The notes beneath the pieces are model-generated. The model did not search any database and was not told the DNA's origin. It saw only the letters and a list, made by a program, of their open reading frames with translations. Made by a program: the position numbers and the translations under genes. From Actinomycetospora lemnae (GTDB lineage Bacteria; Actinomycetota; Actinomycetes; Mycobacteriales; Pseudonocardiaceae), in NCBI RefSeq assembly GCF_028737315.1, contig NZ_JAQZAO010000008.1:186001-250000 (forward strand): 64,000 nucleotides of DNA, written 5' to 3'. This document shows, in pieces, positions 43,436 through 51,406 of the stretch (the first letter of the stretch is position 1; the number at the start of each line of letters is the position of its first letter).

Positions 43436-43859
43436 GGCTCCGCAGCGGCAGCCCGGCGACGATCCGGGCCGCATCGGCCCCGAGGACGCGCAGGTCCGCG
43501 GCCGGGGCGCCCGCGTCGAGGGCCAGGATCGCGTCCGGGACGAGGGCGTGGTGGACGGTCACCGCGCCGTCGGCGGCGATCCCCACCCCGACCTCGAGCC
43601 GGGACTCGCGCGCCGCGAACGGGCCCAGCCGCCCGTCGCGCGGCGGGTCGAGCAGCGCCGTCGGCACCCCCTGCTCCTCGGCGCCGGCGCACACCTCGCG
43701 CACCACCGCGGGCGGCGCGTCGTGGTGGGCCACGACGAGCACCGCGGGCGGCATGGTGGGGTCAGCCAGATCCCGGGTCGAGAGAGGGCGGTCGATGCGC
43801 CCGTGGCAGCCCGGTCCGCCGGAGGCCGAGACGCCCGAGAGCGGGGAGCCCCGGGTCAC
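43425..43859 (-). CDS. ddrB: diol/glycerol dehydratase reactivase, small subunit
   Basis: 144 aa from GTG 43859, which overlaps the ddrA stop (GTGA). An internal ATG at 43754 would give 109 aa and starts where homology begins (PPAVLVVAHHDAPPAVVREV). EEQGVPTALLD and SRLEVGVGIAADGAVTVHHA match the DdrB/PduH small-subunit fold. With DdrA it swaps damaged cobalamin out of the inactivated dehydratase. The N-terminal about 35 residues may be untranslated. Confidence 0.85.
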   Translation of the reverse strand: MTRGSPLSGVSASGGPGCHGRIDRPLSTRDLADPTMPPAVLVVAHHDAPPAVVREVCAGAEEQGVPTALLDPPRDGRLGPFAARESRLEVGVGIAADGAVTVHHALVPDAILALDAGAPAADLRVLGADAARIVAGLPLRSLRR

Positions 43860-45715
43860 GACGCCGCCTGCCGCTGGACCTTCTCGGGGGCCGGGCCCGC
43901 GGCCGTGCCCGCGTGGACGTCGACCAGCCCGGCGGCCACCGCGTTGCGCGGGCCCTCGGTGCCGTGCACGTTCCCGATGCCGCAGACCACCCCGTAGGGC
44001 GCGAGCGCGTCGGCGACCATGCCCGGGATCTCGAAGTCCAGCGCCGACCCGCCGAGCAGCACCACCGACCCGAGCAGGCGCAGCGAGCCCTGCGGGGCCA
44101 CCTGCGCGAGCGCCCGCAGCGCGTTGACGACGAACACCCGCCGCTTGGCCTCGCGCCGGACCCGTCGCACGGACTCCAGCGAGCCCTTCACGGGCACCGC
44201 CGCGAGTCCCTCCGGGGTGACGGTGACGACCTTCGCGAACACGTGCGGGGGCAGCGGCTCGGTGAAGAACTGCACCGTGCCGTCCTCGTGGCGGATGTGG
44301 AAGAAGCTCTCGACCTTGGCGAGCGGGTGACGCTTGACCGACTCCGCGGCCTCGCGGTCCTCCAGCCCCAGCTCGGAGTCGATGAGCTTGGTGACGAGCT
44401 CGCCCGCGCCCGCGACGTGCACCGCCGACACCGCGCCGTCGCGGTCGAGCAGCGCCGCGTCGGTGGACCCACCGCCCATGTCGATGATCGCGATCGGCAC
44501 CGACGTGCCCGGCGTGGTCAGCGCGCCGCGCACCGCGACCTCGCCCTCGACCCCGCCGATGATCGTCTCGCACCCGAGCTCGGTGGCCAGCGCGTCGGCC
44601 ACCGCCTGCATCCGGCTGCGGCTGGTGCGGACCATCGCCGCGAGCGCGACGGCGTTCTCCTGGTGGACCTCGCCGGCGAGCCCCCCGCGGACGGTGGCGG
44701 GGACCATGGTGTCGACGGCGAGGACGTCGCGGATGCGGATCTCCGACGCCGGCTGGCCCGTCACGTCGGTCATCGTGTCGCGGACGTTCGCGAGCATGCC
44801 GCCGACGTGCGTGCCGGCCTCGCCGTGCACGTCCGACAGCGGCGCGACCCGCCCGATCGCCTCCATGATCGCGTCGGCGCCGCCGTCCACCCCGACGTCG
44901 AGCGTGCGCCCGGAGCCGGACAGGTGGAGCGTCCCGACCGGGATGCGCCGGTCGGTGACGTCGCCCGCGGGCGTGCGGACCACGACGGCCGAACGGTTGC
45001 CCGACAGCGCCCGGGCGACCGGCGAGACCTTCCGGGTCTGCTCGGCGTCCAGGTCGAACGTCGACGCGAGCCCGTAGGAGTCCGAGAGCGTGCGGATGGT
45101 CCGCCCGGGCGCCGCGACCTCCACGGCCGCGAGCATGTCGAGGGGCACCTTCTCCACCGCGGAGACCTCGTCGACCACCGGGATGCGCCGCTGCAGCCGG
45201 TTGACCACGAGGACCGCGTCGTCGCCGTGCATCACCCCGGCGACGACGTCCACGCCCCGTTCGAACGCGCGGTTGAGCAGGTGCGCGACGTCGTCGAAGT
45301 CGGCGCCCTTGCCGACCACGACGACGACCGTCGTCCCGGGCTCCACCTCGTCGAGCCCGTCCAGGGCCACGGTGGTCCCGACCCCGAGGCCCTCACCGCC
45401 CGGCGTGTCCGGGTTGTGCCCGATCATCGTGGACTCGGTGATGATCGTCTCGGTGATCGTCTCCATCGCGAGTCCGCTGATCACCGGGGTGGCCTCGTTG
45501 AGCAGCACGGTCGCGAGGGCGTCGGCGGGCCGCCCGGAGACCTCGAGGGCCCGCCGGACGGCCGTGACCGCCCCCGTCGTGTTCTCCGGGGTGCCCTTCA
45601 CCCCCGTCGTCGCGGTGAGCGACGACGCGAGCCGGCCGACCTCGCCCTGGGTGACCTCGGCGATGCACGCCTCGGTCGTGGAGTTGCCGATGTCGACGCC
45701 GATGACCAGCGACAC
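43856..45715 (-). CDS. ddrA: diol/glycerol dehydratase reactivase, large subunit
   Basis: 619 aa from ATG 45715. Actin/Hsp70-like ATPase: VIGVDIGNSTTEACIAEV is the phosphate-1 motif. SGLAMETITETIITESTMIGHNP is a DdrA hallmark, and IIDMGGGSTDAALLDRDG is phosphate 2. SVVLLGGSALDFEIPGM closes the nucleotide site. Length matches DdrA/PduG (about 610). It works with DdrB on the dehydratase encoded upstream. The 103 bp before it hold a strong hairpin. Confidence 0.95.
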   Translation of the reverse strand: MSLVIGVDIGNSTTEACIAEVTQGEVGRLASSLTATTGVKGTPENTTGAVTAVRRALEVSGRPADALATVLLNEATPVISGLAMETITETIITESTMIGHNPDTPGGEGLGVGTTVALDGLDEVEPGTTVVVVVGKGADFDDVAHLLNRAFERGVDVVAGVMHGDDAVLVVNRLQRRIPVVDEVSAVEKVPLDMLAAVEVAAPGRTIRTLSDSYGLASTFDLDAEQTRKVSPVARALSGNRSAVVVRTPAGDVTDRRIPVGTLHLSGSGRTLDVGVDGGADAIMEAIGRVAPLSDVHGEAGTHVGGMLANVRDTMTDVTGQPASEIRIRDVLAVDTMVPATVRGGLAGEVHQENAVALAAMVRTSRSRMQAVADALATELGCETIIGGVEGEVAVRGALTTPGTSVPIAIIDMGGGSTDAALLDRDGAVSAVHVAGAGELVTKLIDSELGLEDREAAESVKRHPLAKVESFFHIRHEDGTVQFFTEPLPPHVFAKVVTVTPEGLAAVPVKGSLESVRRVRREAKRRVFVVNALRALAQVAPQGSLRLLGSVVLLGGSALDFEIPGMVADALAPYGVVCGIGNVHGTEGPRNAVAAGLVDVHAGTAAGPAPEKVQRQAAS

Positions 45716-45818: not shown

Positions 45819-46412
45819 TCAGTCCACCTTCGTGATGACCGGCTCGACCTCCACCGCGTTGCGGGAGTGGTCGATGCAGTCGAACTCCTTGAGGTGCAGC
45901 AGGGCCGCCTTGGCCTGCCAGCGCGGGCGGGCCATCTGGTCGTTGCGGGTCGGCACCGGCTTCGGCGACTGGCCCTGCGCGTACTGCGCGGCGTTCGCGC
46001 CGATCATGCGGAACACCTCGGCGTCCAGCAACGGCGCCTGCGGGAAGAGCTCGAGGTTCGACAGACGGGCGAGGTCGCGCTGGTGGAGCACCGTGGTGCC
46101 GCGCGAGAGCACACCCACCGCGATGCCCGAGCCGGAGATCTTCGCCCCGAAGTGGGCGATCGCCGCGAGGTCGGCGGTCTTGTAGACCTTGATGACCCGC
46201 GCCGACCCGCCGCGCTCCTCGATGCCCGCCAGCAGCTGGCGGATCACCTCGGCGTGCGGCACGTCCACGATCGTCTTGGTGAACGGGTCACCGAACGCCG
46301 GCGAGAGCGCGATGACGACCTCGTCCGGCTTCGTGCCGCGCTCGGCGGGCCCGATCTCGCGCAGCGACAGGGTGCGGACCGACTCGGTGCTGACTGCTCC
46401 TGGCGCGGTCAT
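45819..46412 (-). CDS. pduD: diol dehydratase medium subunit
   Basis: 197 aa from ATG 46412, overlapping the large-subunit stop (ATGA). DEVVIALSPAFGDPFTKTIVDVPHAEVIRQLLAGIEERG and VIKVYKTADLAAIAHFGAKISGSGIAVG match the medium subunit, which binds cobalamin's lower face. RDLARLSNLELFPQAPLL is also conserved. Shorter at the N-terminus than enteric PduD, whose extra segment targets it to microcompartments, which fits the lack of shell genes. Confidence 0.93.
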   Translation of the reverse strand: MTAPGAVSTESVRTLSLREIGPAERGTKPDEVVIALSPAFGDPFTKTIVDVPHAEVIRQLLAGIEERGGSARVIKVYKTADLAAIAHFGAKISGSGIAVGVLSRGTTVLHQRDLARLSNLELFPQAPLLDAEVFRMIGANAAQYAQGQSPKPVPTRNDQMARPRWQAKAALLHLKEFDCIDHSRNAVEVEPVITKVD

Positions 46413-48121
46413 ACGACCTCCTCCTCGGGGTTCTCGGCGGAGGTGACGTGCCGGAGCTTCTTGAGCTCCTCCCACCGCTCGCCGGACAGGCGGTAACCGG
46501 TGCCGGGTCCGGCGTAGTCGTTGGCGTCGTTGATGGCCGCCAGCGGGACGAAGTCGCCGGTGAGCACGGCGGCGGTCTGCAGCAGGTCGCCGGAGACGCG
46601 CTGGCGCAGCACGTTCAGGTAGTTCTCGGCGACGTCGCCGAAGCCGGTGCGCTCGAGGATCTTCACGAGGTCCAGACCGGTGATCCCCCGGTCCATGACG
46701 CTGCGGGCGCCCTCGAGGTCGGCGAGGGCGTCGCGGTCGGGGTAGTCGTCGCTGGAGTCGGCGTACGTCGCCGCCTCCACCTCCTCGTCCGTGATCGCGG
46801 GGAGGTCGAGCTCGGCGAACAGGGCCTGCATCGCGCGCGCGGCCTTGTTGCGGACCTGCAGGATCACGTCCTCGCGGACGTGGCGCAGGCCGCCGTCGAC
46901 CTGCATGTCGCGCTGGATGACGTTCCAGTCGTCGTAGTCCTCGGTGTCGAGGTTGGACCCCGCGAACATGTTGTCCTTGTTCGGCACCCCCGAGTACCCG
47001 GAGCACACGAAGTCGGTGCCGGGCAGCATCTGCGGCAGCAGGCGGCTGGTGCGCCGCATCGCCGAGTGCGAGAACGACTGGTCGTTGCCGGACGCGCACT
47101 CGAGGTCCATCCAGCTGGCGACGAGGTTCTCCGCCGCCACCGCGCGGATGCCGCCGGGCACCGCGCCGGGCACCCCGATGCACGAGATCGAGCCGTTCTG
47201 CAGCCCCTGCACCCCGGCGCCCTTCGCCATGAGGATGCAGCGGATCTCCAGGTACAGCATGGAGCGACCCTCGGCGTTGCCCATCTGCACCTCGGAACCC
47301 GTGCCCGAGGTGAAGCGCATCTTGATGCCGCGGGACGCGTACGCCGAGGCGAGGAACGCCTTGGACCACGGGGTGTCGTCGCCGTCGACGAACACCGACT
47401 CGGTGCCGTAGATGGAGATCGTCTCGGCGTAGGCGGTGATGCCGCGCATGCCGAGGTCGAGCTCGGTGGCCTCCTCCAGGGCGCACTGGGTGAGCACGCC
47501 GCCGCGGCCGACCTGGCCACCGACCTGCAGGCCGATCGCCACCAGCGGCGCGTAGCGCACGACGCCGAGCGTGGTCTCCAGCTCGGCGAAACCGCGCACC
47601 GCGGCCTCGGCGGCGTCGGCCGCGACCTGGATCGGGTTGTCCTTGGCGCTGGTCGAGTGGGCCTGGTTGGCGGGCGTGCGCCGCGAGCGGGTCTTCTGGA
47701 TGCCCATCATGATCTCGACGACGTTCATCAGCTTGACGACGTCGAGGATCTTCGCGGGCGTCAGACCGCGGCCGAGGGCGACCACGTCGGCGCGGGAGGT
47801 CCGGGGATCGACCAGCATCCGTGCGATCTCGACCGACGGGGTCGCCATCGCGTCCTCGCAGGTGTCGACGTCGATCGCGTGGTCGGCGATGAACGTGTCC
47901 ATGAAGTCGAACTGGTCGCGGGTACGACCGTCCAGCTCGACGATCCGGCCGTCCTCGACGCGCACGGACGGCTGCGGGTCGTAGTCCGACTCCATCGCGA
48001 CGAGGCCCTTCTCGGGCCACTCCTCGACGAAGCCGTCCAGGTTGACCGGCCGGGCCTCGAGGATCTCGGTGCGCTTCGACGTCTGTACCGATGCCCCTGA
48101 GCGGGGTGCCACCGCTGTCAT
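46409..48121 (-). CDS. pduC: diol dehydratase large subunit (B12-dependent)
   Basis: 570 aa from ATG 48121. TIM-barrel catalytic subunit: LNVVEIMMG-like VKLMNVVEIMMGIQKTRSRR, PANQAHSTSAKDNPIQVAADA, RGGVLTQCALEEATELDLGM, FTSGTGSEVQMG and YSGVPNKDNMFAGSNLD are all strongly conserved in PduC/GldA/DhaB1. Radical chemistry with adenosylcobalamin turns 1,2-diols or glycerol into aldehydes. Residues do not let me separate diol from glycerol preference. Confidence 0.95.
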   Translation of the reverse strand: MTAVAPRSGASVQTSKRTEILEARPVNLDGFVEEWPEKGLVAMESDYDPQPSVRVEDGRIVELDGRTRDQFDFMDTFIADHAIDVDTCEDAMATPSVEIARMLVDPRTSRADVVALGRGLTPAKILDVVKLMNVVEIMMGIQKTRSRRTPANQAHSTSAKDNPIQVAADAAEAAVRGFAELETTLGVVRYAPLVAIGLQVGGQVGRGGVLTQCALEEATELDLGMRGITAYAETISIYGTESVFVDGDDTPWSKAFLASAYASRGIKMRFTSGTGSEVQMGNAEGRSMLYLEIRCILMAKGAGVQGLQNGSISCIGVPGAVPGGIRAVAAENLVASWMDLECASGNDQSFSHSAMRRTSRLLPQMLPGTDFVCSGYSGVPNKDNMFAGSNLDTEDYDDWNVIQRDMQVDGGLRHVREDVILQVRNKAARAMQALFAELDLPAITDEEVEAATYADSSDDYPDRDALADLEGARSVMDRGITGLDLVKILERTGFGDVAENYLNVLRQRVSGDLLQTAAVLTGDFVPLAAINDANDYAGPGTGYRLSGERWEELKKLRHVTSAENPEEEVV

Positions 48122-48122
48122 G

Positions 48123-48548
48123 TCAGTCCTCCTCGGCGAGCAGGTTGCGGGCCGCGTAGACCTCGGCGGCCTCACGGACAAGACCGGCGCAGGTGGGGGC
48201 TGAGAACGTGTTCTCCAGCCGGGACGCGATCTCCTCGAGCTGCGCGGCGCTGGAGGCCCGGGGGCGCAGCGCGTTGTACATCGCCAGCACCTCGTCGTCG
48301 GGGATGGCGGTCATCTCCGCCGCGCGGCGGCAGTTCTCCCCGAGCTGGCGGCGGCCCACCGACTCGGCGATCCGGCCCTGCAGGACGAGCGTGTCGGGGG
48401 TGACGCGCAGGTCCTCGTTGGTGACCTCACCGGAGACGACGGCGTCCATCGTGATGTCCGCGAGCGCCTTGCCGGTCGGCGTGTGCAGCAGCTCCGGGCG
48501 ATTGATCGAGAGCGGGTAGTCCGCGGGGGTCAGTTCGGTGCTGGTCAT
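48123..48548 (-). CDS. pduE: diol dehydratase small subunit
   Basis: 141 aa from ATG 48548, ending 1 bp before the large-subunit start codon. DYPLSINRPELLHTPTGKAL is the family start, then AAEMTAIPDDEVLAMYNALRPRAS and TCAGLVREAAEVYAARNLL. The gene order small-large-medium differs from the enteric pduCDE order. Confidence 0.93.
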   Translation of the reverse strand: MTSTELTPADYPLSINRPELLHTPTGKALADITMDAVVSGEVTNEDLRVTPDTLVLQGRIAESVGRRQLGENCRRAAEMTAIPDDEVLAMYNALRPRASSAAQLEEIASRLENTFSAPTCAGLVREAAEVYAARNLLAEED

Positions 48549-48621
48549 GCCTTCTCCTCGGCACGGTCGGTGCTGCTGGCGGGGACGACCACGTCGGCGG
48601 GCGTCGACCTCGGTGGGGGTG

Positions 48622-49026
48622 TCAGGCCTTGAGCGCGGCGACCGCGGCCTCCGCGACGCGGACGTCCTGCTCGGCGGAACCGGCACTGACGCCGACGGCG
48701 CCCACCAGCTCGCCGTCGCGGTGCACGGGGATGCCGCCGCCGAAGACGACCATCCCGCCGGCGGTCTGCTCGAGCCCGTAGAGCTCGGCGCCCGGCTGGA
48801 CCAGCTCCATCAGGGCGGCCGTCGGGGCCTCCATGAGGATCGCGGTCGCGGCCTTGCGCTGGGAGATGTCGATGCTGGCGCGGATCGCGCCGTCCTGGCG
48901 GGCGAACGCCACCAGGTGGCCGCCGGCGTCGACGATGGCGACGTTCATCGGCTGGCCGATCGCGTCGGCCTCGGCGAGCCCGGCGTCGAGCATCCGACGG
49001 GCCTCGGCGAGGGTCAGTCCGGGCAT
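48622..49026 (-). CDS. HbpS/GlcG-family (PduO C-terminal-like) protein
   Basis: 134 aa from ATG 49026. LTLAEARRMLDAGLAEADAI then MNVAIVDAGGHLVAFARQDG, RKAATAI and FGGGIPVHRDGELVGAVGVSAGSAEQD define the GlcG/HbpS domain. This fold binds haem or cobalamin-related ligands and occurs as the C-terminal half of PduO. As first gene of the dehydratase operon it may store or sense corrinoid or haem (inference). Confidence 0.9.
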   Translation of the reverse strand: MPGLTLAEARRMLDAGLAEADAIGQPMNVAIVDAGGHLVAFARQDGAIRASIDISQRKAATAILMEAPTAALMELVQPGAELYGLEQTAGGMVVFGGGIPVHRDGELVGAVGVSAGSAEQDVRVAEAAVAALKA

Positions 49027-49168
49027 GCGGGAACCTCCGCGCTGGTGGGGCGGCTGGGGACGTGGACGCCCCGCGCCCGACAGGTCGGGGTGTCGCCGGT
49101 CGGGCGGGGCGGTCGGGCCTGGACCCGGCGACGCAGGACGCTAGGGAGCGCGGCGACCCCCGGGCCAC

Positions 49169-49208
49169 GGGGACTGTCCCCACCTGGCCCCGTGGGGGAT
49201 GTCCCCCA
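49169..49208. promoter_or_regulatory. two G/C-box palindromes upstream of the dehydratase operon
   Basis: GGGGACTGTCCCC (49169-49181) and TGGGGGATGTCCCCCA (49193-49208) are near-identical palindromes spaced 25 bp apart centre to centre. They lie in the 204-bp gap between the HbpS-like gene start (49026) and the GntR stop (49231). They look like a tandem operator for the dehydratase operon. I saw no cobalamin-riboswitch B12 box here. Confidence 0.55.
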
Positions 49209-49230: not shown

Positions 49231-49884
49231 CTACCGGCCCAGCACGGACACGCGGGTCGCGTCGAGGTGGACCCGCAACCGCTCGCGCGCCGCCTCGGCG
49301 TCACCGGCGGTCAGGGCGGCGACGATCGCCTCGTGCTGGGCGAGGATCGCGCGCGGGCGTGACGGGCCGCGCTCGAGCGAGCCGAGGTTCATCCGCAGCT
49401 GGCGGTCGCGCAGCGAGGCGTAGAGCTCGAGCAGGATCGGGTTGCGCCCGCTCTCGACCACGGTGATGTGGAAGCGCCGGTCGGCCTCGGCGAAGGCCTG
49501 CTCGTCCTCGCGGGACAGGGCCTCGCGCTGGACGTCGAGCACCTCGTGCAGGGCGGCGGCCACCACGGCGCGGTCCTCCTCGGGCGCGGCGCAGAGCTTG
49601 GTCAGGGCGTGGCCCTCGACCAGCTCGCGCGCCTCGAGGACGGCCTCCACCTCACTGGGGGAGACCGCGACGACGAGTGCGCCGCGCTTGGGGAACAACC
49701 GGAGCAGCCCCTCGGCCTCCAGCCGGAGGAACGCCTCGCGGACCGGGGTCCGGCTCATCGCCAGGGTGTCCGCGACCTGCCCTTCGGTGATCAGGTCACC
49801 ACCGGGCAACGACCCGTCCAGGATGCGGGCCTTCGTGTCACGGTAGGCGCGTTCCTTCGCCGACAGGCTCCCGTTCCCCGTCAC
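49231..49884 (-). CDS. GntR-family regulator (FCD/FadR type)
   Basis: 217 aa from GTG 49884; the frame continues upstream without homology. Winged HTH: AYRDTKARILDGSLPGGDLI, AMSRTPVREAFLRLEAEGLL. The C-terminal FCD helical domain has ELVEGHALTKLC, ADRRFHITVVESGRNPILLEL and LAQHEAIVAALTAGDAEAARE, including the Asp/His metal-ligand pattern (D-x3-H, H). FCD regulators bind small organic acids. It is divergent from the hybrid regulator, with a palindrome between. Confidence 0.9.
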   Translation of the reverse strand: MTGNGSLSAKERAYRDTKARILDGSLPGGDLITEGQVADTLAMSRTPVREAFLRLEAEGLLRLFPKRGALVVAVSPSEVEAVLEARELVEGHALTKLCAAPEEDRAVVAAALHEVLDVQREALSREDEQAFAEADRRFHITVVESGRNPILLELYASLRDRQLRMNLGSLERGPSRPRAILAQHEAIVAALTAGDAEAARERLRVHLDATRVSVLGR

Positions 49885-49931
49885 CGCACCGCCCTTGCCG
49901 TCGAGTCGGCGTGACCCTACTCTCACCACAT

Positions 49932-49952
49932 CGATGCATCTTGTATGCATCG
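49932..49952. promoter_or_regulatory. GntR-type operator between GntR gene and hybrid regulator
   Basis: CGATGCAT-CTTGT-ATGCATCG is a perfect 8+8 inverted repeat, unusually AT-rich for this genome, with the CTTGTATGCAT core often seen for FCD-type GntR proteins. It lies 48 bp from the GntR start and 27 bp before the hybrid-regulator start, so one site could control both. Confidence 0.7.
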
Positions 49953-49978: not shown

Positions 49979-51406
49979 GTGGTTGCAGCGGCACCGACGT
50001 CCGTGCTCCCGACGGACACGTCGACAGGGCCCCGGCACGGCGAGCCCGAGCCGCTGCTGCGACGGATCGCCGACCACCTGGGCACGCTGACCGGCGGCGC
50101 CGGCTGGGTCGTCCGCGTCGACGAGGCCGCCCGCTCGTGGGCGGTCGCCGTCGGCGACGGCTCCGTGCCGGGCGAGGCGATCGCGCGGCTGCTGACCACG
50201 GGCGAGCCGGTCGTCGACGGGTCGGTGCTCGCCGTCCCCGTGCGCCGGGGGCCGCGCGTCGTCGGGGCCTGCGTGGCGTCCGCGGGGCACGCCGCCGGCT
50301 TCTCCGACGCCGACGTCCACCTCGCCGAGCTCTTCGCCGACTACGCCGCCCTCGCGCTCGCCGACAGCGGCGTGCTCGCCGGTCGCACCCTCGAACAGGC
50401 CGTGCGCCAGGAGCTCGACTGGGTCGAGGCGCACGCGCCCACGCGCGCCGACCTCGTCACCGTCGGCGCCGGCAGCATCCCCGAGGGCCTCGGCGACGAG
50501 GTGTTCCGCATGACCCAGGAGGCGCTGCTCAACGCCGCCGTCCACGCGGACGCGCAGTGCGTGCGGGTCGGCGTGGTGCACGGCCCCGGCACCCTGACCG
50601 TGCTCGTCGAGGACGACGGCCGCGGCTTCGACACCGCGGCGAGCGCCCCGCTGGCCGTCGCGACGGCCGGCGCACGCCTCGGGCTGCGCGCCATGGCCGC
50701 CCGCGCCCGCCGCCTCGACGGCGAGCTCGAGATCGACAGCGCGCCCGGGCGCGGCACCCGCCTGCGCCTGACCATCCCCTGCACCTCCGCTCCCCCGCCC
50801 GTCCCGGGCCGGACCCGGACCGGCGTCCTCGTCGCCGCGGTCCGCCCGGTGGTGCGGGCGGGCGTCGTGCGCATGCTCCAGCTCGGGGCGCCGGACCTCG
50901 GGATGGTCTCCGAGGTCTCGGGCGCCGACGACCTCGCCGCGACCTGCCGGCTGCTCGGCCCCGACGTGCTGGTCGTCGAGCACGACCTCCTCGGCGACGA
51001 CCTCGTCGGCATGCTCGAGCGCCTCGCCGCCCAGCCCGACCCGCCCGCCGTCGTGCTCCTCGCCGACGACTGCCCCGACGAGCGGCTGCGGGTCGCCGTC
51101 GCCGCGGGCGTCAAGGGCTGCGTCGGCCCGGACGCCGACCGGCTCGTCGCCGTCGTCGCCGCCGCCGGGCGGGGCGAGACGCTCCTGGCCGACGACCAGC
51201 TCGAGCGCCTCGCCGCCCCGACCCGCAGCGCGCACGCGATCACCCCGCGCGAGCGGGAGGTCCGCGGGCTCGTGGCCCGGGGCCTCACCGACCGCCAGAT
51301 CGCCCGTGCCCTCGCCATCTCGGCCAAGACCGTCGAGAAGCACGTGGGCTCGCTGCTGCGCAAGACCGGCACGCGCAACCGGACGATGCTGGCGCAGTTG
51401 GGGTGA
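49979..51406 (+). CDS. one-piece GAF-HATPase-pseudoreceiver-LuxR HTH protein
   Basis: 475 aa from GTG 49979, chosen for GAGGAGG 7-8 nt upstream; earlier ATGs fall inside the operator. Residues about 20-145 are GAF-like. A NarL-kinase ATPase follows (QEALLNAAVHA; VEDDGRGFD; GRGTRLRL, about 165-270), but the HisKA_3 helix with the His is missing. Residues about 280-400 are receiver-like with all key residues altered: the DD pair reads AAV, the phospho-Asp is Glu334 in VLVVEHD, and the Lys is Pro. An intact LuxR HTH ends it (ITPREREVRGLVARGLTDRQ). Confidence 0.85.
   Translation: MVAAAPTSVLPTDTSTGPRHGEPEPLLRRIADHLGTLTGGAGWVVRVDEAARSWAVAVGDGSVPGEAIARLLTTGEPVVDGSVLAVPVRRGPRVVGACVASAGHAAGFSDADVHLAELFADYAALALADSGVLAGRTLEQAVRQELDWVEAHAPTRADLVTVGAGSIPEGLGDEVFRMTQEALLNAAVHADAQCVRVGVVHGPGTLTVLVEDDGRGFDTAASAPLAVATAGARLGLRAMAARARRLDGELEIDSAPGRGTRLRLTIPCTSAPPPVPGRTRTGVLVAAVRPVVRAGVVRMLQLGAPDLGMVSEVSGADDLAATCRLLGPDVLVVEHDLLGDDLVGMLERLAAQPDPPAVVLLADDCPDERLRVAVAAGVKGCVGPDADRLVAVVAAAGRGETLLADDQLERLAAPTRSAHAITPREREVRGLVARGLTDRQIARALAISAKTVEKHVGSLLRKTGTRNRTMLAQLG

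Follow-up and report, generated by a model that had tools for sequence, protein, structure and literature searches.

The window analysed here, a 64,000-nucleotide stretch of the Actinomycetospora lemnae genome (contig NZ_JAQZAO010000008.1, positions 186,001 to 250,000), encodes a 475-aa one-chain regulator, hereafter REG, in which a GAF domain, an HATPase domain, a pseudo-receiver and a LuxR helix-turn-helix (HTH) follow one another without a DHp domain. A GntR/FCD regulator gene is transcribed divergently from it, and beyond this gene a leftward operon with diol dehydratase genes begins with an HbpS-like gene. The open reading frame of the dehydratase small subunit, as scanned, overlaps the HbpS-like gene, so that its true start probably lies further in. 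The features of the locus are as follows, with L denoting loci and G genomes.

43856..45715, minus strand: diol dehydratase reactivase PduG
46409..48181, minus strand: B12 diol/glycerol dehydratase large subunit
48123..48686, minus strand: diol/glycerol dehydratase small subunit (open reading frame as scanned)
48622..49026, minus strand: HbpS-like protein, first gene of the predicted target operon
49138..49143, minus strand: TAGCGT, putative -10 box of the HbpS/diol dehydratase operon (operon leftward)
49169..49181, no strand: proximal palindrome GGGGACTGTCCCC, predicted REG operator; the putative -10 box has its first T 32 bp from the palindrome centre
49194..49207, no strand: distal palindrome GGGGGATGTCCCCC, second predicted REG operator
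49231..49884, minus strand: GntR/FCD regulator, divergent from REG (GTG at 49884 by reading; scanned as 49231-49914)
49935..49950, no strand: TGCATCTTGTATGCAT in the GntR-REG intergenic region, belonging to an inverted repeat, putative GntR operator, in 15/15 loci
49979..51406, plus strand: REG
50045..50365, plus strand: GAF domain (aa 23-129), without 9-aa and 19-aa stretches of L027, L024 and L072
50366..50377, plus strand: junction lacking the DHp (HisKA_3) block (aa 130-133; block of 75-84 aa in L027, L024 and L072)
50375..50788, plus strand: kinase-type ATPase (aa 133-270), with N, G1, G2 (GL) and G3 motifs present
50819..51178, plus strand: pseudo-receiver (aa 281-400), with A287-V288 at the acidic pair, E334 at the phospho-Asp, A362 and P384
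51221..51403, plus strand: LuxR/GerE HTH (aa 415-475), with ISAKTVEKHVGSLLRKTG invariant across 14 orthologues

The original prediction, made from the sequence alone, had given REG this open reading frame, reading frame and GTG start, and all three stood. GAGGAGG lies upstream of the start codon, and the corresponding place is occupied by AGGAGG in 12 of 14 aligned orthologous loci and by GGGAGG in L014 and L015. Pfam searches placed GAF_2 at aa 26-127, HATPase_c at aa 173-268 (45 bits, cut-off 26.4) and GerE at aa 421-473 (50 bits, cut-off 23.5), all above cut-off; the HTH is intact, as had been described. HisKA_3 and Response_reg were absent among the ten Pfam families listed for REG at E ≤ 10, a list from which the HMMER filters discard most matches with E above about 0.1. 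The profile scan that had been suggested as a check on the architecture thus found GAF, HATPase and GerE and no match to a HisKA_3 H-box, and by Pfam the GAF domain and the HTH lie within a single chain that has no DHp phospho-acceptor. Neither HisKA_3 nor Response_reg was found in the four Actinomycetospora-type proteins scanned with Pfam (window, L012, L017 and L018); the GAF_2 score of L012 was below cut-off. An AlphaFold model of REG built on a 22-row alignment had a pLDDT of 80 and a pTM of 0.57, with domain placement unsure, and Foldseek matched it in the PDB to the VraS ATPase, NarL, LiaR and ChrA.

Compared with L027, L024 and L072, REG is missing one block of 75, 84 and 75 aa, respectively, which contains the DHp region; it also lacks two GAF stretches of 9 and 19 aa and approximately 11 aa ahead of that domain. 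The missing HisKA_3 segment had been recognised from the sequence and was confirmed in a wider set of 15 Actinomycetospora-type rows, comprising 14 species loci including the window together with L051 (from G295, another genus of the family), since none of the 15 has residues in the H column. The shortening of the GAF domain by about 28 residues formed no part of the earlier account, and the shortened domain may have no ligand at all. Residues 283-472 align with NarL, ChrA and DevR through receiver and HTH. Alignment to NarL and L072 agreed with the receiver residues read originally, namely E334 at the phospho-Asp, A362 for the Thr and P384 for the Lys; the triplet AAV reported for the acidic pair corresponds to residues 286-288, the pair itself being A287-V288. 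None of the 15 rows has an acidic residue at the first position of this pair and only L021 has one (E) at the second, while the phospho-Asp position is E in 14 and D in L051. The receiver is therefore present but dead, as it is of NarL type by sequence and by model matches yet has its catalytic residues replaced. The exchange of Lys for Pro is old in the family, because L072-L078, in which the acidic residues are intact, also read GPDA. We looked for a HisKA_3 H-box and for intact receiver residues and found neither, and the proposed loss of the phosphorelay is supported by the lack of an H-box in 15/15 rows and the replacement of the acidic pair and phospho-Asp. A canonical receiver overlooked by eye was rejected, there being no Response_reg match and the pocket residues being replaced in the orthologue rows. 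We also considered E334 as a direct relic of an ancestral D surviving in L051; this protein is nested in a clade of E-bearing rows, so that later reversion in L051 is simpler.

The ATPase residues are largely kept, as had been claimed: N185, H189, D213, G214, G216, G235, G259 and T260 are present, with Ala in place of the third Gly of the G2 box. All 15 Actinomycetospora-type rows retain the N-box Asn, the G1 residues and the GL of G2, and 13 of them the G3 Thr; the third Gly of G2 is replaced in 15/15, so the affinity for ATP may be low. An RsbW-like anti-sigma ATPase was rejected given that REG scores 45 bits with HATPase_c against 23 with HATPase_c_2 and that its relatives are kinases; L017 scores 37.6 with HATPase_c_2 against 31.8 with HATPase_c, and the score alone is therefore not decisive on this point.

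Longer relatives of REG were found at nine loci (L023-L031) from Microbacteriaceae, Micrococcaceae, Pseudonocardia and Propionibacteriaceae. In a sample of the class, 10 of 393 other genomes matched REG across nearly the whole chain, seven of these matches (L072-L078) coming from one genus (g89), and a sample of the phylum added two further relatives without a stop, L085 and L086. All five full-length relatives scanned with Pfam carry GAF, HisKA_3, HATPase_c, Response_reg and GerE in one chain, with HisKA_3 above cut-off in four and Response_reg likewise in four. REG is 34-40% identical to nine full-length rows. The DHp histidine is present in each of the 19 full-length rows and the receiver phospho-Asp in 14 (lost in L028, L030, L031, L079 and L080), and D stands at both positions of the acidic pair only in L072-L078. 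L085, by reading of the alignment, retains the complete set of H, DD, D, T and K, and a one-chain ancestor could therefore have been fully competent.

Alignments and trees were made without L022, which is truncated at a contig end, and without the GAF-HTH protein L034; L040 and L041 were unused and the genus copies L052-L059 were kept out of the trees. The 15 Actinomycetospora-type rows, all without DHp, form one clade with support of 100/100. Identity, tree and operator type agree that REG shares descent with the one-chain regulators found beside dha genes in its ATPase, receiver and HTH. L087-L089 are two-gene pairs in which a kinase gene, a stop and then a regulator gene follow in the same frame, with 32-34% identity to REG over the matched region; such pairs are a plausible route to a one-chain fusion, and we make no claim for them as direct ancestors. 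Seven further proteins (L032, L033 and L035-L039) consist of GAF and an HTH of the same type only; these GAF-HTH forms come from Subtercola, Frigoribacterium, Salinibacterium and a Microbacteriaceae MAG, and L033 and L035 were verified with Pfam. In a 41-row tree of GAF and HTH they fall among the full-length rows and group with three Propionibacteriaceae rows that have an Asp-less receiver (98/96), and a tree forcing all 19 full-length rows to one side was rejected (p 0.0024). The GAF-HTH form would thus represent a second, separate reduction, its direction being read from unrooted trees with full-length forms on both sides.

The original prediction was that this exact architecture matched no known described family. 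We found no literature description of the protein, of the one-chain dha regulators or of the operator in titles and abstract openings from mainly non-subscription sources, and to this extent the claim stands, but close one-chain relatives occur in several actinobacterial families. Because relatives that carry the parts absent from REG exist, REG is a stripped-down family member and not a singleton: it is a real, conserved, stripped variant of a one-chain family, the variant itself being new and the evolutionary series unusually clear.

Fourteen other Actinomycetospora loci gave the best matches of the REG protein in the species collection, with 61-93% identity over the best segment. The regulator is present in 17 of 18 genus genomes, in none with an internal stop (one copy is ended by a contig end); the dehydratase large subunit occurs in the same 17, and neither was matched in G023. 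Across 14 sequences the mean identity was 65% in GAF, 72% in the ATPase and 81% in both pseudo-receiver and HTH. We estimated w by simple counting in GC-rich pairs. Across five close pairs (window/L009, L010/L011, L014/L015, L018/L019 and L012/L020), the GAF, ATPase, receiver and HTH domains gave w of 0.02-0.25, apart from a single value (0.42 in the GAF of L012/L020), and the N-terminal 22 aa gave 0.46-1.53; three wider pairs gave 0.18-0.56 in the same four domains. ATPase motif positions were invariant at 16 of 25 sites against 10.9 expected from the other ATPase positions (nominal p 0.02). By these measures purifying selection acts on all four domains, none of which is simply drifting. Alpha1 and alpha5 of the pseudo-receiver were invariant at 20 of 25 positions against 14.6 by chance (p 0.01); as full invariance is also seen in four of the five beta strands, this conservation only hints at dimerisation. 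We also noted that Cys98, Cys268, Cys323 and Cys381 are invariant in 14 orthologues.

The genes for GntR, HbpS and both dehydratase subunits adjoin the regulator in 14/14 other loci (L009-L022), and the reactivase is absent only from L011 and L019, whose stretches stop short of it. The neighbour genes of the relatives are different: they encode a class II aldolase, a HAD hydrolase, DhaL and DhaK, and REG thus sits beside a diol dehydratase operon, not the aldolase-HAD-DhaL-DhaK operon of the dha-type family. The aldolase gene was found in 16 of the 17 loci L023-L039 (L031 stops soon after the regulator) and in 7/7 of L092-L098, in L098 at about 5 kb from the regulator. A tblastn search with the window GntR at E 1e-8 gave no match in the 24 loci L023-L039 and L092-L098; among 26 loci searched the only match was in L099 (G295), which has the pdu arrangement.

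Several further observations concern these neighbours. The large subunit is 92-96% identical to that of the window in ten genus loci and 76-78% in L009, L012, L020 and L022; L009 has this divergent dehydratase type though its regulator is the closest to REG (93%), which suggests that the operon was replaced while regulator and operator stayed the same. In G295, which belongs to a different genus of this family, a DHp-less regulator (L099/L051) has genes for GntR, HbpS, dehydratase and reactivase beside it; the regulator is nested within the Actinomycetospora rows in the GAF and HTH tree and has D, not E, at the receiver site, and this pdu locus looks like a transfer. An HbpS-like gene also occurs near the dha operon in L023, L024, L026, L033 and L098; as it accompanies both dha and pdu operons, HbpS may be a partner of this regulator family.

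Two palindromes lie upstream of HbpS in 15/15 loci, typically GGGGACTGTCCCC followed by GGGGGATNTCCCC approximately 25 bp on, centre to centre, with imperfect palindromes in several loci (e.g. L014, L016 and L018). An ACGCTA- or ACGGTA-type box (TAGCGT or TACCGT on the coding strand) is found on the promoter side at an offset of 35 or 36 in all 15 Actinomycetospora loci. Across the 6.06-Mb genome the tandem pattern has one location only, the two listed matches being the two strands of that location. A stricter tandem form was found in 23 of 390 family genomes, made up of 13 of the 18 genus genomes, G295 and nine others; in the 13 and in G295 it lies within about 2 kb of the regulator, G023 has none, and the nine others have no regulator match better than about 5e-27 (G060, across a stop).

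Weight matrices derived from the sites of the 15 Actinomycetospora loci were applied to 26 loci of relatives, and a locus was scored as a pass if the top hit of at least one matrix fell in the interval from 30 nt ahead of the regulator stop to 170 nt past it. Sixteen of the 26 passed against 1.4 expected, with an interval that was set after the sites had already been viewed; in 300 trials with column-permuted matrices the passes averaged 1.5 and never exceeded 8. Seven of the passes (L072-L078) are closely related to each other, and the hits in L076 and L079 are weak. Among the ten misses, the best hit lay upstream of the aldolase gene in L023 and L026 and upstream of the regulator gene in L024; a strong hit fell beyond the interval in L031 and L039, and a second-ranked one fell within it in L030 and L035. 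A similar palindrome was visible by eye only in L025 and L080, and none was seen in L081. Two Actinomycetospora pdu loci, six dha loci (L072-L075, L077 and L078) and the GAF-HTH locus L033 have 30.5-31.5 bp between the palindrome centre and a TAnnnT motif, the site finder having yielded this spacing in 9 of 22 segments, and the window has 32 bp. A -10 box usually starts at -12, and with this start the proximal palindrome would be centred near -43, a classic position for a LuxR-type activator.

We assigned the palindromes to REG because the regulator is what pdu and dha loci have in common (HbpS being shared by some), and locus comparison thus points to them as the predicted REG operators. Two sites had been proposed originally for footprinting, and they fared differently: 49169-49208 is well supported as a target by comparison, but 49932-49952 looks more like a GntR operator or promoter. 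Binding of REG to TGCATCTTGTATGCAT is less likely than binding of GntR, as no G4/C4 palindrome was seen between the divergent GntR and REG genes.

REG may be set beside several known systems. With NarL/LuxR-family response regulators (NarL, DevR, ChrA and VraR) it has in common a receiver-like stretch and a GerE HTH in register over aa 283-472, but its receiver pocket is lost and a GAF domain and kinase ATPase are fused in front. It shares the ATPase with HisKA_3-type kinases (VraS, DesK, MadS and NarQ), the first structural match being the VraS ATPase with ADP, and differs from them in lacking DHp and histidine and in being fused to an HTH; the NCBIfam MadS model scored 64.9 bits on REG, far below its cut-off of 500. 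The direct relatives are the one-chain GAF-HisKA_3-HATPase-REC-LuxR regulators of Pseudonocardia, Arthrobacter, Salinibacterium, Propionibacteriaceae and other actinobacterial genomes, which have the HTH type in common with REG and, in most tested loci, the kind of operator; unlike REG, they keep the histidine (19/19) and mostly the receiver Asp (14/19) and adjoin the aldolase-HAD-DhaL-DhaK genes. We know of no name for this family. Bacteroides hybrid two-component systems likewise join kinase, receiver and HTH in one chain, but have an AraC-type HTH, a membrane sensor and an intact phosphorelay. Pseudo-receivers and aspartate-less receivers have the receiver fold without its phosphorylation residues, as REG does, but no case in the consulted parts of PMC12632262 and PMC4395418 is in one chain with a DHp-less kinase ATPase, and the aspartate-less receivers treated in those parts of PMC4395418 have other outputs. 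Pseudo-histidine kinases, as cited in the consulted part of PMC12632262 (Collins and Childers, 2021), are kinases minus one or more functions, which REG resembles, but REG is without the entire DHp and its predicted output is DNA binding in the same chain. According to the 2025 review of pseudo-receivers (PMC12632262), the histidine is missing in 0.3% of HisKA_3 domains, and the mechanisms of activation and inactivation of pseudo-receivers are "a mystery".

Our main reading, to which we give a probability of roughly 0.6, is that REG is a phosphorylation-independent activator derived from a one-chain two-component ancestor, binding tandem palindromes and receiving GAF-ATPase and GntR inputs. 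Descent from a one-chain phosphorelay protein, loss of the relay and a conserved DNA element at an activator position are well supported by the comparisons. The ancestor would have had a GAF sensor, DHp with its histidine, ATPase, receiver and LuxR HTH in one chain; in the ancestor of the Actinomycetospora form DHp would have been removed in frame and the receiver Asp pocket lost, with HTH, pseudo-receiver fold and ATPase motifs retained through these losses. We infer DNA binding, activation, positions relative to the transcription start, dimerisation, nucleotide or ligand input and GntR control. REG would bind two tandem G4/C4 palindromes centred at about -43 and about -69 upstream of the HbpS-diol dehydratase operon, probably as a dimer on each, and would be placed where a LuxR-type activator touches RNA polymerase, with the pseudo-receiver as a structural and dimerisation piece. 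A nucleotide or small molecule on the GAF-ATPase half would directly alter chain assembly, and the divergent GntR would set the amount of regulator. Direct relay of ligand or ATP binding to DNA binding, as originally proposed, is plausible, and we favour such GAF-ATPase input because those parts remain under selection. The ligand might be a C3 polyol or carbonyl, to judge from the dihydroxyacetone genes next to the relatives and the diol dehydratase next to REG.

GntR control of regulator amount through 49935-49950 is the main rival to GAF-ATPase input and may act alongside it. Taken by itself, it would make REG constitutively active and controlled by amount only, with GntR repressing its gene and GAF and ATPase serving as fold-holding remnants. 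The divergent GntR and the inverted repeat between the two genes in 15/15 loci speak for this, as does the lack of a match to the window GntR (tblastn, E 1e-8) in the 23 loci of relatives that show the dha aldolase, and PMC12632262 recognises availability as one way in which active pseudo-receivers are controlled. Against it, GAF and ATPase are under purifying selection, with ATP-motif positions invariant more often than other ATPase positions, and a mere remnant might drift or vanish, as the ATPase did in the GAF-HTH branch; we consider control by amount alone unlikely. It is still less likely that the pseudo-receiver or the conserved cysteines are the sensor, with redox or a ligand acting on the receiver remnant or E334 mimicking phosphate and locking the protein on. 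The remnant is, along with the HTH, the most conserved part of the protein (81% mean identity), four Cys are invariant in 14 orthologues, and redox and ligand control of pseudo-receivers is described in the same part of PMC12632262; Cys98 and Cys381, however, have counterparts in L027 and L072, which keep the receiver Asp, the acidic pair required with a phosphate mimic is gone, and the orthologue L051 has D.

Retention of ATP motifs without an internal acceptor would also fit an ATPase still catalytic in trans that phosphorylates, or as a pseudo-kinase partner inhibits, the DHp of another kinase. None of ten scanned neighbouring proteins is a kinase or receiver, and the intact HTH in the same chain near a matching operator indicates that REG probably acts at DNA itself, which makes a role in trans quite improbable. 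That several catalytic sites were lost together might be taken to mark REG as a decaying, functionless relic of a two-component protein, but its presence without internal stop in 17/18 genus genomes, the conserved operator and the low w make this hardly credible, and on selection (w) and occurrence we rejected it.

Beyond the activator reading, we put forward more tentatively, as somewhat doubtful, a stepwise reversal from two-component to one-component regulation in two lineages with the same kind of operator, in which the DHp-less ATPase would be an ATP- or ADP-gated switch of the HTH. The order would run from two adjacent genes to an intact chain, a dead receiver and then excision of DHp or, in the GAF-HTH form, removal of kinase and receiver. 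REG bears on what kinases without a phospho-acceptor do; it is a concrete candidate case of two-component parts collapsing into a one-chain switch, a natural test of reversion of such a system to a single-protein switch, and a candidate for a non-catalytic role of a kinase ATPase. Living relatives include forms that are intact, partly broken or stripped, all with the same kind of HTH and promoter, so that each loss is testable by swaps. We also noted by eye a single palindrome behind the regulator gene in the GAF-HTH loci L032, L033, L037 and L038 and a tandem pair in L072-L078 and the DHp-less forms; architecture and oligomer state may be linked.
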